Shown here piece by piece: positions 3,977 to 35,115 of a stretch of 35,183 bases of DNA; positions within the stretch are counted from its first letter, which is position 1, and each line of letters opens with the position of its first letter. The DNA lies in IMG/VR virus record IMGVR_UViG_3300037502_001286, positions 1 through 35,183 of that record; one strand, given 5' to 3'. This stretch comes from a virus. The notes under the pieces were generated by a model. That model saw only the letters and a program-made list of their open reading frames with translations, did not search any database and had not been told where the DNA came from. The position numbers and the translations under genes were made by a program.

Positions 3977-5321
3977 GACGAGCCCACAAAGCAGGTCGCT
4001 TCATGCCTCTGGCCGTACCGATGGCGATCAAATCTGCCTCTGTTTGTGCGCGGCCTTGTTCCATGCGTTTGGCCTTTGCTGCGGCCTTCAAGTCGATTTC
4101 TTTGAGCTCCCCATCAACATGGTTCACCTCGCGCTTGACAATTGGAAATTCATAACCGCATGAGCAATGGGTCGCAATGGCCGCGACGGTGGCGAAACAA
4201 GCGCCGCAGGTCTTGACCGGCACTTCGGATTTCTTTTCTGATTTTTTCTTTGTCGCGCCAGTGAGCGACCACAAGTGCTCCTCATCTGGCAGGCCATGGC
4301 GCTTTACATTGCCCGCGTGGTCAAGGATGATGGCCTCGGACTTGCCATCAAAGATGCGCAACGCCCGCCCGACCTGTTGCAAATAGAGACCAAGCGACTG
4401 AGTTGGCCGTAGCAGGATTGCGGCCTCAATCGAGGGCACATCGAAACCTTCGGAAATCAAATCGCATGACGTGATGATTTGGATGCGACCCTCGGCAAAT
4501 TCTTTGAGAAGCGATTGACGAAGCCCGCGCTCCATTGAGCCGTCGATGGCCTGAGCCGTTATGCCAGCCGCCCTAAATTGCTCGGCCACATGGTTGGCGT
4601 GCGCAACAGAAACGCAAAAGGCCACCGCGCGTTTGCCGCTTGCCAGCTTTAGGTAGTGCGAAACAGCATCGCCAGTGATTGATGGTTTGTCGATTGCGGC
4701 CTCAAGTTCCGATTTCACGAAGTCGCCCATGCGGGTGTGCACACCCGAGAGATCAACGCCAGCAGGGGCAAAAAGCCGGTAAGGGCTCAAGGCACCAAGC
4801 TCAATCAGCTCTCGCATTGTTGGGCCTTGCACCATGCACTCAAACAAATCGCCCAAGCCCTCGCCTGAAAGTCGAATCGGTGTGGCGGTGACGCCGAGCA
4901 GTTTTGCCTTTGGAAATTCCTTGATGACCTTGCCCCATGTGCTGTCGCTAATCGCGTGGTGTGCCTCGTCAACGATGATTAGATCGGGCGGGTTATAGCG
5001 TTCCATTCGTCGCACCATGGTGAACACCGAAGCGACCTGCACCTTTTGGCTTCTGTCGGACATATAGCCAGGCGCGACCATGCCGTGAGCCACGTTGAAA
5101 ACGCTCAGTGTGCGAGAGATTTGCTCAAGCAATTCGACGCGGTGCGCAAGAATCCACACGGTGAGGTTTTTCTCGACAGCTTTGCTTGCCATGTAGGAAA
5201 AGCAAACGGTCTTGCCACCACCGGTGGGGAGCACAAGAAGTTGCGCTCGCTTGCCCGCAATGAAATTTGCCCGCGTGCGCTCGATTAGCGTGTTTTGGTA
5301 GGGGCGAAGGGTGATTGTCAT
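3933..5321 (-). CDS. Superfamily 2 DEAD/DEAH-type helicase
   Basis: The product is a 462-aa SF2 helicase. The ordered motifs are Q-like LRPYQ at the extreme N-terminus, Walker A PTGGGKT (residues 32-38), DEAH box (118-121), motif III TAT (145-147), motif V near EGFDVP and motif VI QQVGRALR (~318-325). After the helicase core comes a Cys cluster (CGAC ... CSCG, ~372-390), likely a zinc knuckle, and a basic C-terminal tail. This is the compact form common in phage replication modules, acting on forks or branched DNA. I chose ATG at 5321 because it makes an ATGA overlap with the methyltransferase stop and starts at the conserved LRPYQ; an ATG at 5342 would add seven residues. Confidence 0.9.
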   Translation of the reverse strand: MTITLRPYQNTLIERTRANFIAGKRAQLLVLPTGGGKTVCFSYMASKAVEKNLTVWILAHRVELLEQISRTLSVFNVAHGMVAPGYMSDRSQKVQVASVFTMVRRMERYNPPDLIIVDEAHHAISDSTWGKVIKEFPKAKLLGVTATPIRLSGEGLGDLFECMVQGPTMRELIELGALSPYRLFAPAGVDLSGVHTRMGDFVKSELEAAIDKPSITGDAVSHYLKLASGKRAVAFCVSVAHANHVAEQFRAAGITAQAIDGSMERGLRQSLLKEFAEGRIQIITSCDLISEGFDVPSIEAAILLRPTQSLGLYLQQVGRALRIFDGKSEAIILDHAGNVKRHGLPDEEHLWSLTGATKKKSEKKSEVPVKTCGACFATVAAIATHCSCGYEFPIVKREVNHVDGELKEIDLKAAAKAKRMEQGRAQTEADLIAIGTARGMKRPALWARHVLRARHAKEARRV

Positions 5322-6226
5322 TCTGCGCTCAGAATTCGCCATGCTGTTGCGGCACAGAGTGGGACTTGCCCGTTTCCAATGGCTTTAAGTCTGTCCACCC
5401 GAGCGGCCACCCCATCAGCCACTCGACCCACGTTGGGTTCAGCTTGCCACCATTGCCTGCCCCCATGAGTCTGGCTTCCTCTTTGCTCGTGTTCTTGTTG
5501 AGTAAATCCCATGAGCCACTGCCGCCACACATCCCTTTGGTTCTCGGTGTAGGCCATTTCGCCGCATATGACTGAAGTGTTCTGCCTGATTGCGATTTCG
5601 CCTGTGGGTCGAAATCCTTCGTTGGGCCTCTTTGGCTGGCATCTGGTGTTGGTAGTAAACGCTTTTTCAATGCTTTCCTGCTGTTGCTCCCACCGTCTAA
5701 ACCTGTCGTGTTGGGTGTGTGGAAGCTGTCCACGCCATTTGGCGACAATCCAGATTCTGTCCCTCTGATGGTTTGCTCCAATATCCGCTGCTCCCAACAC
5801 TCCCCATCGCGCATCAAACCCCATTGAGGCCAAGTCTCCGAGAACAGCTCCAAGTCCCCTAGAAGTGAGCATTGGTGAGTTCTCCACGAAGACGAATCTG
5901 GGTCGTACTTCGTAAATGATGCGCGCCATTTCTCGCCACATTCCTGACCGCTCTCCGTCAATTCCTGCGCCTTTTCCTGCGGCTGAAATGTCTTGGCATG
6001 GAAACCCGCCAGAAACCACGTCAACAATTCCTGCCCACGGTCTTCCGTCAAAGGTTTGTATGTCATCTCAAATCGGGAAAGTTTCAAGAACGCCGTCATT
6101 TTGTCGGGCGCACAATACGCTTGCTGGATAGGGTTCCCATTCAACGGCGCAGACCGTTCGCCACCCGAGGAGTTTGCCTCCAAGTATTCCTCCACCAGCG
6201 CCTGCGAAAAGAGCCAGCTCATTCAT
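5318..6226 (-). pseudogene. Cytosine-C5 DNA methyltransferase interrupted by an in-frame TGA
   Basis: Read from ATG at 6226, the frame gives a 302-codon C5 methyltransferase with the catalytic motifs in order: motif I LFAGAGG (residues 6-12), motif IV GGFPCQ with catalytic Cys77, motif VI ENSP (115-118), motif VIII HQRDR (153-157) and motif X GNGQVP (about 284). One TGA stop interrupts it at codon 53 (6068-6070), between motif I and motif IV. Homologues as I recall them carry Trp there, so a single TGG-to-TGA change explains it. Start and stop both form ATGA overlaps with the flanking genes, showing this was the native operon frame. The stop would leave a 52-residue stub. Restart at an internal GTG (6019) would lack the SAM-binding motif. 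Readthrough, sequencing error or a recent null allele are all open. Confidence 0.8.
5329..6222 (-). CDS. 297-codon frame overlapping the methyltransferase gene
   Basis: A second uninterrupted frame, shifted relative to the methyltransferase, starts at ATG 6222 and covers almost the whole locus. Its text is familiar from phage annotations: LTEDRGQELLTW, KYDPDSSSW, WGLMRDGECWE and a C-terminal LNPTWVEWLMGWPLGWTDL. Such proteins are often deposited as hypothetical or methyltransferase-related. It has no methyltransferase motifs of its own, and many of its conserved words lie exactly opposite conserved methyltransferase words, so its conservation may be a shadow. The C-terminal VEWLMGWP segment is also found in-frame at the end of some single-frame phage C5 methyltransferases, which hints at a past frame fusion. 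It may be a real overprinted gene or only a long open shadow. Confidence 0.35.
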   Translation of the reverse strand: MSWLFSQALVEEYLEANSSGGERSAPLNGNPIQQAYCAPDKMTAFLKLSRFEMTYKPLTEDRGQELLTWFLAGFHAKTFQPQEKAQELTESGQECGEKWRASFTKYDPDSSSWRTHQCSLLGDLELFSETWPQWGLMRDGECWEQRILEQTIRGTESGLSPNGVDSFHTPNTTGLDGGSNSRKALKKRLLPTPDASQRGPTKDFDPQAKSQSGRTLQSYAAKWPTPRTKGMCGGSGSWDLLNKNTSKEEARLMGAGNGGKLNPTWVEWLMGWPLGWTDLKPLETGKSHSVPQQHGEF

Positions 6227-15613: not shown

Positions 15614-16102
15614 TTATCTTGCGAGTGCGTTTTTGAATGGTGGATTTTGAAGGTAGGCGATTGCTCTTTGCAGACCAGCCACATTGTCACCAAGATGGCC
15701 TAGACCTGTATTGCAACCAGAGCAAAGGATGCCTCGCACTTCATTCGTGTCGTGGCAGTGGTCAATGTTCATCCTCCGTCTAATGGCTTCCATTGGTTTG
15801 CCGCAGATAGCGCAACCACCACCTTGTTCAGCAAGCAGATCAGTAAATTGCTTCATTGAAATTCCGTACTGCTTGCGAATTTTGTTGTCTTGCTTTTCTA
15901 AGCCAGACCAGTTTGGCGGCTTGTAGTTGCTGCAAGACATTGGTGAATTACCGTTCTTTACTTCACGGCTGCTCTGTTCATGCAGCTCACCGCATGACTT
16001 GCAACGACCCAACCACTTATTAGGCGCACCGACAGATTCGACAACGACATAGTCGTTCTCAAATCCAATCAGGTCGATGCGGGGCTTGCGTGTTCGGGTC
16101 AT
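15614..16102 (-). CDS. HNH endonuclease, recombination endonuclease VII type
   Basis: The product is 162 aa. The N-terminal part has a zinc pair (CKSCGE ... SCSNY). The C-terminal half is a typical endonuclease VII/HNH fold: YGISMKQFTDLLAEQ, then CAICGKPM, NIDHCHDTNEVRGILCSGCNTGLG with the His and Asp of the active site. A free-standing homing endonuclease is the usual reading for such genes beside tail genes. The last residues, PPFKNALAR, closely copy the end of the upstream tail protein (HPFKNSLAR) although the DNA differs at nearly every third base. Its ATG overlaps the tail gene stop. Confidence 0.88.
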   Translation of the reverse strand: MTRTRKPRIDLIGFENDYVVVESVGAPNKWLGRCKSCGELHEQSSREVKNGNSPMSCSNYKPPNWSGLEKQDNKIRKQYGISMKQFTDLLAEQGGGCAICGKPMEAIRRRMNIDHCHDTNEVRGILCSGCNTGLGHLGDNVAGLQRAIAYLQNPPFKNALAR

Positions 16103-18444
16103 CGGGCCAAGCTATTCTTAAATGGGTGTTCTGCGAAGGCTGCGAATATGTATGTACCGCCGCTGACATTCAGCGAGTTGTTAGCTCCTCTGTTCTTGAA
16201 TCCGTTTGACAGGATGTCAATGTAGATGTCGCTAAAAACACTCTCAGCATCCGAAGCATTAGCTTGGAAGTATGCGTTCGTCAAATTGAATGTGTTTCTC
16301 GCCGTATCAAAGACACTCCAGCTTGATGTCGAGTCTGTGCGCTTAAATAGAATCCACCTCGGCCTAAACCCACAGAACACAAACGGCCCATCAGTAGACC
16401 CGTTGCCTGTGTAGCTGCCGAAGCGACTGAAGCCAGCGACTTCTGCGAATAGGTAGGCGACCATTGTTGCGCCTGCCACTTGGATGCCAGTTCCACAATA
16501 GAACACGCTGCTTGTTGGCTCACCGCCCCAGATGTTTGTTGAAGTCTGAGCAGCCGCAGTGGATTCCAAGTTAATCCATTTGTCAGCCATGTTTGTGCCA
16601 AGCGATTTGTGAGCAGTAGTCCAGTTGCTAGTGTTACTGCGAGACTTCACAATAATCATTGAAGGCTTGACGCCAAGGTTGTGGGCAAACGATGACGACC
16701 CGCTTGACGGGTTTGTGAATGTCACAATGTCAAAGCCAGCGGTGGCTGATTCTTTCCATAGCCATGCGACATCTGTATCAGAAGAACGATTGTGCGATGT
16801 GCTAGCAAAGTTGCTGTTATATACAAAATCAAATCCAGATGAACTAAAAGACCCAATAGACCCGAATCCCGTAGCTTCTGCATTGGTGTTGTTTGAATAA
16901 AGTACTAGCAACCCATCAACACCAGATCGCAGCTTATCAACAAGTGCGTGTAGGTATGTATTTGAACGGCTCTTGAACCAAGCAAAATCTGGTGCAAATT
17001 GCGTTGTTATGGATTGATTTCCACCATTGCCAGAATAGGTCACCGCATCAAAATACTGGTTCCCCTTCAAGATGCTAGGCGCTGGCAAGTTCTGCGTGTT
17101 CAGCGCTTTGAAGCCTGTGGGTGGGGTGTAGGCGAAGGGGCGTTGGCCTGCGTTGAAGTAGGCAGATGGCGTACCAGCCGCACCGCCACCGTTGCCGATG
17201 TACGGGAATACTTCGCTGGACAAACTGCTTGCCACTGAACCAGTGCCAGCCACGGGGTCGCCAGAGTTCAGCCATGTGCCGTTCTTGGCGATGTAGAGTT
17301 TGTTGCCCTTGACCGCAAAGCCAATCACATCATTGGTGGTGAATGTCGCCAACACACCAGTGATAGCAGCAGCGTTGTTGTAGACCTTGCCATCAGATTG
17401 GTAGATCGCCCAACATCCAGCCCAGTTAAAACTAGAAAATGCTGTTGAGTTTGCAACGCCAAGTGTTAGGTAGTTTGTTCCACCAGCCACGACTTCCCAA
17501 TAAGAACTATCAAACGCAGCCATTGTGCAGCGTGAGTGCCCGTAGTTGACCGCTGAGAAAGAGATGTATTGGTTGCCTTGCGCCACTGACGATGCGTTCT
17601 GAACATCAAGTGGATTAATAACGCAGTAATTCCCCCGCCCATTCCCGCCATCAGCGTAAGGCGTTGGCACATCCAGCATTGAATCGTAGGTCACCCCACT
17701 GGTCACGCTGATGTTGTTGGGTGTCCAGTTGTTGCCGTTGCCAGAGTAGTCCTTGCCAATGGTGGCTGCGGTGTTGTTGCTGTTGTCTGAGAAGTTCAGA
17801 TAAAAGCCGTTTGTGCCGTATGTGCCACCGTACTTCTTAGGCTTCCACACGCCTGTGATCGCATCGGTTTCACCGAAGCTGCTTGGGGTCAGGGCTTGAC
17901 CGTCAATGAAGTTGATTTCGGTTAGGTAGCCGTCAAGGTTGTAAGCAGCCGCATCACCACGGCGACCAATAGCGTGAACCACAGCACTATTCAGATTTAA
18001 GTCTGTGTTTTGTGATGGGTATGTCGCAACTGCGAACGCTGTTTGCTGAACCCCGTTGACATACATCTTGACGCGATTGCTTGCCGTTGCCTGTGTAGTG
18101 TCAAACGCTACAACGATGTGATACCACGCAGACGGGTCACGAAACACGGCGGTGGTCGTAACCTCATACGCGCCACCAGTTGTGTCTCTGAAATGAAGCG
18201 CATCGCCGTTGCCAGATGTGCTACCAAAAAAGCCAACAACTTCGCGTGTTCCTGCATTTCCAAGAATTGCGGCTGTTCCACCCAATGCACCACGCTTTGC
18301 CCAAGCTGACAAAGTAAAGATGCGTCTTGATGTTGGTGTTGTAAATGTGCGGTCTAGATAAGCACTCGCACTTGAGCGCAGACGCACAGAACGGCTGATG
18401 TTGTAGCCATCATCGCTAAGAAGTAATGGATTTCCTAGCATCAC
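16099..18444 (-). CDS. LamG/concanavalin-like receptor-binding tail protein
   Basis: The product is a 781-aa virion surface protein. Residues ~30-190 form a LamG-like jelly roll (LSAWAKRG ... WYHIVVAFDT ... RVKMYVNGVQQ ... LDGYLTEINFIDGQAL), residues ~300-440 a SPRY-like segment (SSYWEVVAGG, DVIGFAVKGNKLYIAKNG), and ~460-780 a DUF7483-like beta-rich part ending with AAFAEHPFKNSLAR. Such proteins sit at the tail tip or fibre and bind host sugars. The start is GTG 18444 in a GTGA overlap, with ATG as second codon. It is followed by an HNH gene with the same C-terminal ending. Confidence 0.85.
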   Translation of the reverse strand: MMLGNPLLLSDDGYNISRSVRLRSSASAYLDRTFTTPTSRRIFTLSAWAKRGALGGTAAILGNAGTREVVGFFGSTSGNGDALHFRDTTGGAYEVTTTAVFRDPSAWYHIVVAFDTTQATASNRVKMYVNGVQQTAFAVATYPSQNTDLNLNSAVVHAIGRRGDAAAYNLDGYLTEINFIDGQALTPSSFGETDAITGVWKPKKYGGTYGTNGFYLNFSDNSNNTAATIGKDYSGNGNNWTPNNISVTSGVTYDSMLDVPTPYADGGNGRGNYCVINPLDVQNASSVAQGNQYISFSAVNYGHSRCTMAAFDSSYWEVVAGGTNYLTLGVANSTAFSSFNWAGCWAIYQSDGKVYNNAAAITGVLATFTTNDVIGFAVKGNKLYIAKNGTWLNSGDPVAGTGSVASSLSSEVFPYIGNGGGAAGTPSAYFNAGQRPFAYTPPTGFKALNTQNLPAPSILKGNQYFDAVTYSGNGGNQSITTQFAPDFAWFKSRSNTYLHALVDKLRSGVDGLLVLYSNNTNAEATGFGSIGSFSSSGFDFVYNSNFASTSHNRSSDTDVAWLWKESATAGFDIVTFTNPSSGSSSFAHNLGVKPSMIIVKSRSNTSNWTTAHKSLGTNMADKWINLESTAAAQTSTNIWGGEPTSSVFYCGTGIQVAGATMVAYLFAEVAGFSRFGSYTGNGSTDGPFVFCGFRPRWILFKRTDSTSSWSVFDTARNTFNLTNAYFQANASDAESVFSDIYIDILSNGFKNRGANNSLNVSGGTYIFAAFAEHPFKNSLAR

Positions 18445-33412: not shown

Positions 33413-33911
33413 CACCGCCTTCAGGCTCGGATGGCCTGACAGGGTTATGCACATGGATTTCGATGTTTTCAAGTTCTTTGAGCGCTTCATAAATTTGTTC
33501 TTTTAAGACGATCTTCACTTCTTGCAAACTCTCCGCAGAGAAAACCTCTGATGCCGCCTTGGTCGGTAGTGACAGCATCTTCGCCCGCATATTTGTCACC
33601 GCCTCGACCCACGCCTGCTCAATGTCGCCAGCCGGAATGAGCTTCTCCTCCATCTGCGCCTTTTCCATTTCCATGATGTCCGCGCGCGCACGCGTGAGCC
33701 TCATTCTGTGGGTCGTGTAATCGTCCTCTGGAAGATCGCGTTTCAAATTGCCCATGCGCAAATACTGCACATAGGCCCGCACCACCGGAACAAGCTCGTA
33801 TTTGCCGCGCTCAAGTTTAGGGATTACACCTTCCTTTGCAAGTTGGTTGATGCGCTGAGGCGTCAGGTCAAGCAACTTGCAAATCGTGTCAAGCGGTACT
33901 GTCGTCGCCAT
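33375..33911 (-). CDS. terS: Terminase small subunit
   Basis: The product is 178 aa. An N-terminal winged helix-turn-helix (TICKLLDLTPQRINQLAKEG, residues 9-28) binds the packaging site, as in lambda Nu1. A long coiled-coil middle (RMRLTRARADIMEMEKAQME) and the 'W-EAVTNMRAKMLSLP-KAA' segment typical of Nu1-type small terminases follow, then an acidic disordered tail. It overlaps the upstream methyltransferase gene by 23 bases and terL by 38. Confidence 0.9.
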   Translation of the reverse strand: MATTVPLDTICKLLDLTPQRINQLAKEGVIPKLERGKYELVPVVRAYVQYLRMGNLKRDLPEDDYTTHRMRLTRARADIMEMEKAQMEEKLIPAGDIEQAWVEAVTNMRAKMLSLPTKAASEVFSAESLQEVKIVLKEQIYEALKELENIEIHVHNPVRPSEPEGGDDEGVSEPKTTT

Positions 33912-35115
33912 TGATTAGCTCCGCTTTTTTGCCAGTGAAATCTTCCCATCGCTTTACGATCACGTCGCAATACTTGGGGTCTAGCTCCATCAGGCGGGCT
34001 TGTCGGTTTGTTTTTTCGCACGCGATTAGCGTGCTACCGCTGCCGCCGAATAGATCAACAACAACATCATTTGGTTTTCCCCACTTGTCAAAAACCCAGC
34101 AATGCAAATCAATTGGTTTTTGTGTTGGGTGAACACGCTTTTGACCGCGCTCAATGGAATCAAAACCTACCCATCTTTTCCAGAAAGTCGCTTTCTTATG
34201 CCTTTGTTTAGACCAACAGATTTCAAAGTCGTTGCCAATCATTTCGGCATCGGCCTTATCTCGCTTTTGCCAAACCAACAAACTACCGCCGCGCGGCAAA
34301 CATTCAAAGTAGTAGTCTGCACCCCACCAAAAATGCTCTCTCGCTTCCTTAAAAAATTCGATCAATGCGGACGGGTCAAAGTCTTCATCATCCCCAATTA
34401 CTTTGTCCCATTTATAACCCTTTGCATTTGGACTTTTATTAGAACCCTTAATTTTGCTGTAATCGGTGTCTAAGGCCATACCATAAGGCGGGTCGCAATA
34501 AACCATATCAGCCTTCTGCCCATCCATCAATTTTTCAACAGCATCAATCGAGGTGCTGTCCCCACACATCAACCGGTGGCGACCCAACTTCCAAATGTCG
34601 CCCAAACGAGTGACCGGTTCCTCCGGCAACTCTGGCACCTCGTCCTCGTCGGTCAACCCTTCCACTTCCTCCACGATCTGCTCTGCAAGTCCGGCCAGCT
34701 CATCATCGGTAAACCCGAGCAAGTCGATGTCGAAATCCTCGTCCTTAAGTTCGGCAATTTCCAGCGCCAGCATTTCATCGTCCCAGCCTGAGTTCAACGC
34801 CAATTTGTTGTCGGCGATCACGTAAGCCTTCTTTTGGGTTTCGGTCAAATATCCGAGCCGGATGCAGGGCACCACTTTCAGTTGCAATTTACGCGCGGCC
34901 AGCACGCGGCCATGGCCCGCAATGATCTGGTTGCCGTTGTCAATCAAAACGTTGCCGTTGTCAATCAAAACGTTGCCGTTGTCAATCAAAACGGGGTTTG
35001 TAAAGCCGAATTCCTTGATTGACGCGGCAATTTGCGCGGTTTGCTCGTCCGAATGCGTGCGCGAATTCCTCGCGTAAGGCAGCAGGCTCTCAATCTCAAT
35101 TTGCTCAATTTGCAC
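33889..35115 (-). CDS. ParB-nuclease / DNA methyltransferase fusion
   Basis: The product is 408 aa. Residues 1-130 are a ParB/Srx-type domain (LLPYARNSRTH, then IIAGHGRVLAARKL with GHGR at 67-70). An acidic linker (~115-170) follows. Residues ~170-400 are a beta-class N6-adenine or N4-cytosine methyltransferase, with LGDIWKLGRHRLMCGDS, catalytic DPPY (208-211), HPTQKP and motif I DLFGGSGST (354-362). Such fusions are common next to terminase genes and are thought to modify phage DNA against restriction. The start is GTG 35115 with AGGAGA four bases ahead. The ParB part carries a threefold VLIDNGN repeat. Confidence 0.92.
   Translation of the reverse strand: MQIEQIEIESLLPYARNSRTHSDEQTAQIAASIKEFGFTNPVLIDNGNVLIDNGNVLIDNGNQIIAGHGRVLAARKLQLKVVPCIRLGYLTETQKKAYVIADNKLALNSGWDDEMLALEIAELKDEDFDIDLLGFTDDELAGLAEQIVEEVEGLTDEDEVPELPEEPVTRLGDIWKLGRHRLMCGDSTSIDAVEKLMDGQKADMVYCDPPYGMALDTDYSKIKGSNKSPNAKGYKWDKVIGDDEDFDPSALIEFFKEAREHFWWGADYYFECLPRGGSLLVWQKRDKADAEMIGNDFEICWSKQRHKKATFWKRWVGFDSIERGQKRVHPTQKPIDLHCWVFDKWGKPNDVVVDLFGGSGSTLIACEKTNRQARLMELDPKYCDVIVKRWEDFTGKKAELINGDDSTA
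34931..34993. repeat. 21-bp tandem repeat, three perfect copies, inside the ParB domain
   Basis: The unit at 34931-34951 recurs without change at 34952-34972 and 34973-34993. It keeps frame and encodes VLIDNGN three times (residues 42-62), where relatives have a single 'PVLID--G-IIAGHGR' stretch. This is an expansion by two units just before the GHGR motif. Confidence 0.95.

Follow-up and report, generated by a model that had tools for sequence, protein, structure and literature searches.

Overlapping reading frames for a putative two-polypeptide DNA cytosine-5 methyltransferase in a phage genome with an in-frame TGA

Results and Discussion

The DNA analyzed here (the window) is a stretch of 35,183 nucleotides from a virus recorded in IMG/VR. 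It contains a locus that very probably specifies a two-polypeptide DNA cytosine-5 (C5) methyltransferase of the M.EcoHK31I type, with a single stretch of DNA read in two frames. Its larger frame (alpha, frame 0) is interrupted by an in-frame TGA. The TGA itself is a minor matter; the main interest lies in a widespread, largely unannotated overlapping enzyme.

Two full-length reading frames in one gene

The initial annotation described a single gene, and re-reading the sequence confirmed its ends on the (-) strand, i.e., a start ATG at 6226-6224 and a stop TGA at 5320-5318. Likewise, ATGA overlaps are present at both ends (upstream with the HTH gene, 6471-6223, and downstream with a helicase ATG), as are an internal GTG at 6019 and a lone in-frame TGA at codon 53 (6070-6068) that is followed by a G. 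What had been missed is a second full-length ORF (beta) on the same strand, which comprises 297 amino acids in the +1 frame and overlaps nearly the whole alpha gene (Table 1). Its start ATG is kept in 129 of 129 sequences. Beta matches the profiles PHROG 1008 (E 1.5e-22) and PHROG 26627 (E 1.1e-15), and both are matched by beta in all 104 members of the family alignment. A search for the beta family in Pfam and NCBIfam returned none.

Table 1. Features of the methyltransferase locus (positions refer to the window).
Feature	Position	Strand	Matched by
Beta ORF, 297 aa, open through the TGA; subunit with target-recognition region and motif IX (assigned)	5329..6222	(-)	
ATGAATGAG, with alpha ATG (6226) and beta ATG (6222) 4 nt apart	6218..6226	(-)	
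Alpha 5' piece, 52 codons including motif I, closed by TGA	6068..6226	(-)	PF00145, PHROG 363
Alpha motif I, FAGAGGG	6188..6208	(-)	
In-frame TGA, alpha codon 53; Gly52 to Glu in +1 frame	6068..6070	(-)	alignment of relatives
+1-frame ATG one base 3' of the TGA and past beta Glu52; candidate site for re-initiation after truncated alpha	6064..6066	(-)	
Alpha remainder: motifs IV, VI and VIII, near-unconstrained spacer, motif X, stop TGA at 5320-5318	5318..6067	(-)	
Alpha motif IV, GGFPCQ (catalytic Cys)	5993..6010	(-)	
Alpha motif VI, ENSP	5873..5884	(-)	
Alpha motif VIII, HQRDRIW	5750..5770	(-)	
Recognition-region stretch, alpha codons 166-270; +1 frame constrained, frame 0 nearly neutral	5417..5731	(-)	
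Beta motif-IX-like segment, LNPTWVEWLMGWPLGW, beta 261-276	5395..5442	(-)	
Alpha motif X, RVDRLKAIGNGQVPLCAATAW, alpha 276-296	5339..5401	(-)	

About 250 homologous loci were examined, drawn from phages and a wide range of bacterial phyla; each of them has both frames, with an offset that is always +1. In the IMG/VR scans, all 160-odd viral and phage loci match in both frames, mostly over the full length and at 50-75% identity, irrespective of whether alpha or beta served as the query. Alpha is overlapped by beta at +1 in 92 out of 92 cases, made up of 12 named phage, plasmid and E. coli records and 80 bacterial or archaeal genome loci, which include Pseudomonadota, Verrucomicrobiota, Planctomycetota, Spirochaetota, Nitrospirota and two archaeal MAG contigs; the viral and genome loci are the best 80 per scan, chosen by similarity, and these sequence counts do not represent independent events. 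For a Pseudomonas locus (L191), a sample of 399 genomes of its genus was searched with alpha alone. All 17 carriers found in this way have an open beta that starts 4 nt after the alpha start, and stops are absent from either frame. In another locus, from a Gallionella MAG (L237), the alpha and beta frames swap at one point within the gene, as if one indel had shifted both.

Selection acts on both frames

Upon synonymous-codon shuffling of alpha, 5.4 stops are expected in the +1 frame, whereas none is observed in 127 of the 129 sequences; the +2 frame averages 18.6 stops in the same comparison. We additionally classed isolated substitutions in 62 disjoint sequence pairs by their effect in each frame, with rates expressed per 1000 weighted opportunities. 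The rate amounts to 128 for changes that are silent in both frames, 24.6 for those silent in frame 0 only, 12.1 for those silent in the +1 frame only and 2.2 for those silent in neither. Frame-0-silent changes that create a +1 stop are absent (0 out of 1870 opportunities). The helicase gene was dropped as a single-frame control because the loci contain too few of its homologues, and the +2 frame of the alpha gene was used instead. This control shows no comparable pattern (34.7 versus 27.2, with stops at 67 out of 4052). Both frame 0 and the +1 frame are under purifying selection.

Within the gene, the strength of this selection shifts. Frame 0 is the more strongly constrained up to about codon 160 and again after codon 280, while over codons 165-270 it is nearly neutral and the +1 frame is strongly constrained. 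In C5 methyltransferases, this is where the recognition region and motif IX are located. Over codons 166-255, changes silent in frame 0 only occur at a rate of 2.2, compared to 44 for changes silent in the +1 frame only, and this order is reversed before codon 160 and after codon 280. Frame 0 dominates in motifs I-VIII and X, and the +1 frame in the target-recognition region, from where its dominance extends into the putative motif IX.

Division of the methyltransferase motifs over the two frames

The earlier claim that every C5 methyltransferase motif lies in one frame did not hold. Frame 0 by itself does not make up a complete methyltransferase, as the recognition region and the assigned motif IX belong to the conserved +1 ORF: measured against a single-chain C5 methyltransferase, frame 0 has a nearly unconstrained recognition region and no motif IX. 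Its alignment with M.HhaI and M.HaeIII extends no further than motif VIII (residue 162). Motif X, on the other hand, is found in frame 0 (RLKAIGNGQVP), where it is nearly invariant in 102 relatives and where the PHROG 363 match reaches the C-terminus. A larger polypeptide with motifs I-VIII and X is thereby a feature of the family, and of the window copy only if the TGA is read through.

The segment LNPTWVEWLMGWPLGW at the end of the +1 frame fits motif IX in order and pattern, presumably as in M.HhaI. Order, pattern and the matches to PHROG 1008, 10223 and 116 agree, making motif IX a well supported, if indirect, assignment at the level of sequence. The IX-X segment yielded nothing relevant in Pfam, NCBIfam or solved structures, and the Pfam match was not extended over a composite of alpha and beta. 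In five relatives (Streptomyces phage phiBT1, Mycobacterium phage EagleEye, L233, L236 and L250), alpha ends after motif VIII and beta carries the motif-IX-like segment and motif X in one frame. The beta ends of these alpha-short relatives match the methyltransferase profile PHROG 116, in phiBT1 at 441-496, with the alpha match upstream at 212-390. AlphaFold models reached a pLDDT of 57 for alpha and 55 for beta. The alpha core was predicted fairly confidently and the alpha middle with low confidence, which is consistent with a spacer. The beta model was poor and had no structural match, and such weak models give assembly no structural support.

A proposed two-polypeptide enzyme and its known counterparts

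In the arrangement that we propose, ribosomes arriving at ATGAATGA would use both ATGs. Alpha would be the catalytic, SAM-binding polypeptide (motifs I-VIII) and also provide motif X, its middle serving as a tolerated spacer, while beta, starting from the ATG 4 nt downstream, would carry the DNA-recognition region and motif IX. The two products may then assemble into one enzyme, and the phage context points to an orphan phage methyltransferase that would shield phage DNA. In the window record, the TGA would truncate alpha ahead of the catalytic Cys, and the same base would alter an invariant Gly of beta.

There is precedent for such a division. The smaller polypeptide of M.EcoHK31I is reportedly encoded within the gene for the larger one, in another frame, the original description being attributed to Lee, Kam and Shaw in 1995; the second polypeptide of the present locus likewise lies in an alternate frame. 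M.EcoHK31I is a natural split C5 methyltransferase that has motif IX on a polypeptide separate from the one bearing motifs I-VIII and X, M.AquI has motifs I-VIII on one polypeptide and IX and X on the second, and active enzyme also forms by reassembly of separated fragments of other C5 methyltransferases (PMC3404938). With M.EcoHK31I (YGGCCR), the locus shares a larger polypeptide that bears motifs I-VIII and X; under the indirect assignment given above, motif IX would fall on the smaller one here too. The likeness is one of motif layout. The locus differs in that beta, with a start 4 nt behind that of alpha, almost equals it in length, in that the constrained recognition region lies in beta, whereas it is predicted in alpha for M.EcoHK31I, and in that the present family occurs in phages and prophages, with no evident endonuclease partner in the window. 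With M.AquI (CYCGRG), it shares the split after motif VIII and, under the same assignment, motif IX on the second polypeptide. Motif X, however, is on alpha here and on the second polypeptide in M.AquI, a layout that is shared by the five alpha-short relatives.

Three other readings of the overlap were considered. The +1 ORF might be a mere by-product of conserved frame-0 codons, the locus then being an ordinary methyltransferase with a nonsense mutation. Public annotation, which mostly gives the frame-0 gene alone, fits this reading, but we consider it barely credible: the substitution test contradicts it, as frame-0-silent changes are suppressed where they alter the +1 frame and give rise to no +1 stops, the +2 frame is without any such pattern, and conservation in the recognition region is much higher in the +1 frame than in frame 0. 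A single chain made by programmed frameshifting would follow alpha to motif VIII, shift to +1 for the recognition region and motif IX and shift back for motif X. The constraint does pass to +1 at about codon 160 and return to frame 0 at about codon 280, in the order that one chain needs. Yet two shifts would be required, codons 1-160 likewise show constraint and no stops in the +1 frame, which a shift product would not need there, and the beta ATG is present in 129 out of 129 sequences, leaving this reading improbable. To a similarly small degree, beta may have a role of its own (e.g., in DNA binding or regulation) that is kept after loss of alpha, so that the record would represent a natural beta-only state. 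The counts of alpha-only versus beta-only stops lean toward beta outliving alpha, but the loci came from a beta query and the counts were therefore not used as evidence. The M.EcoHK31I-type enzyme remains our preferred reading.

Meaning of the in-frame TGA

The initial annotation expected a Trp at codon 53 in homologues, and the alignment at this codon, a check that it had named beforehand, agrees: all 128 aligned relatives carry TGG, 81 of them within PFPIWDDVQT, and the stop is shared by none. The difference at the invariant Trp codon is of the single G-to-A type, and the TGA occurs in the window sequence only. Upstream of it, the alpha 5' piece still matches PF00145 (16.7 bits, below the cut-off) and PHROG 363 (E 2.4e-9). 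In beta, the same base replaces Gly52, which is kept in all of the other 128 sequences, by Glu. Because the alpha and beta frames overlap, the TGA is not a beta-sparing change. As it truncates alpha and changes an invariant Gly of beta, the window allele is probably inactive, or its base is wrong. The earlier reading as a null allele stands insofar as a single change hits an invariant Trp, but frame 0 is not self-sufficient, so the change would be a null of the alpha subunit, and the +1 ORF is uninterrupted.

Most likely, the allele reflects either a loss of function by recent mutation or an error in the consensus base, two explanations that we hold about equally likely, with readthrough less so. 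If the metagenomic assembly has a wrong consensus base, for which the chance is close to even, the phage itself would have TGG and an intact two-subunit enzyme. This agrees with a TGA that is unique among 129 sequences and hits an invariant residue in both frames, and with a copy in which private changes are otherwise few and decay is not seen elsewhere (one stop and six private changes, with no further lesion, against the aligned sequences). Alpha-only stops nevertheless also occur in L069, L189, L190, L204, L205 and L224, where a stop breaks alpha while beta stays open, none of them at codon 53. Such recurrence in relatives speaks for a real, recent loss-of-function mutation of alpha, to which we give the same nearly even chance; in some hosts, phages can do without their orphan methyltransferases. 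Against a real mutation, no alpha stop is found among the 17 alpha-found genomes of the Pseudomonas sample, and beta is damaged as well (Gly52 to Glu). A near-identical contig for comparing the base at codon 53 was looked for and none was found. Homologues with the same stop were also sought in IMG/VR by the pattern TTYCCNATTTGAGATGAYRT; the six matches are unrelated sequence, and no other matching contig encodes the alpha gene.

A functional TGA is unlikely. Readthrough or near-cognate Trp insertion might keep alpha at a low level, or a stop-and-restart at the +1 ATG might tune alpha versus beta. The arrangement TGA-G-ATG indeed sets a +1 ATG one base past the stop (the +1-frame residue at this position is Met in most relatives), and misreading of TGA by tRNA-Trp would insert Trp, which would give back the native residue. 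However, no relative shares the stop, its context is TGA-G and the window has no suppressor tRNA. A general code in which TGA means Trp was ruled out, as TGA is the normal stop of 19 of the 37 window genes examined and the window has no tRNA gene.

Half-annotated enzymes in public records

Wherever public annotation was read, only one half is annotated, with the exception of one mycobacteriophage. In the literature, searched largely outside subscription papers, no description of overlapping phage methyltransferase subunits was found. PHROG 363 and 116, the phage DNA methyltransferase profiles matched by alpha, are annotated as one protein, with the overlapping beta undescribed; PHROG 1008 is labelled DNA methyltransferase and PHROG 26627 is without function, and neither is described as an overlapping subunit. 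In phiBT1 (L167:1905-2837), an unannotated +1 ORF with recognition-region-like repeats and motifs IX and X lies beside gp9.1, which is annotated as 'DNA methylase may be inactive'. By its motif content, this ORF is likely the missing second polypeptide of gp9.1. In EagleEye (L162:1730-2744), gp89 and gp88 are both annotated as methyltransferase, and gp88, located in the +1 frame of gp89, has motifs IX-X; together, they look like the two halves of one enzyme.

If the two-polypeptide reading is true, a common class of 'orphan cytosine methyltransferases' of phages and prophages is annotated as half an enzyme, and a second, fully overlapping gene for sequence recognition has mostly been overlooked. 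Cloning and testing would be affected, as recoding or codon-optimizing alpha would destroy beta, and methyltransferases that have been called inactive, such as gp9.1 of phiBT1, could be accounted for. The locus also represents a broad, well-sampled case of two overlapping genes in bacterial viruses: both frames are selected, and constraint clearly passes from one to the other.

Other features of the window

Elsewhere in the window, a perfect 21-bp tandem repeat in three copies (34930-34993) lies within an ORF (33889-35115) whose putative product is ParB-like/adenine-methyltransferase-like by appearance, and adds VLIDNGN three times. Two adjoining ORFs (15614-16102 and 16099-18444) have near-identical ends (PFKNALAR versus PFKNSLAR), with DNA that has diverged. 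The shorter one looks like an endonuclease VII type (putative) and may be an insertion carrying a copy of the longer gene's end.
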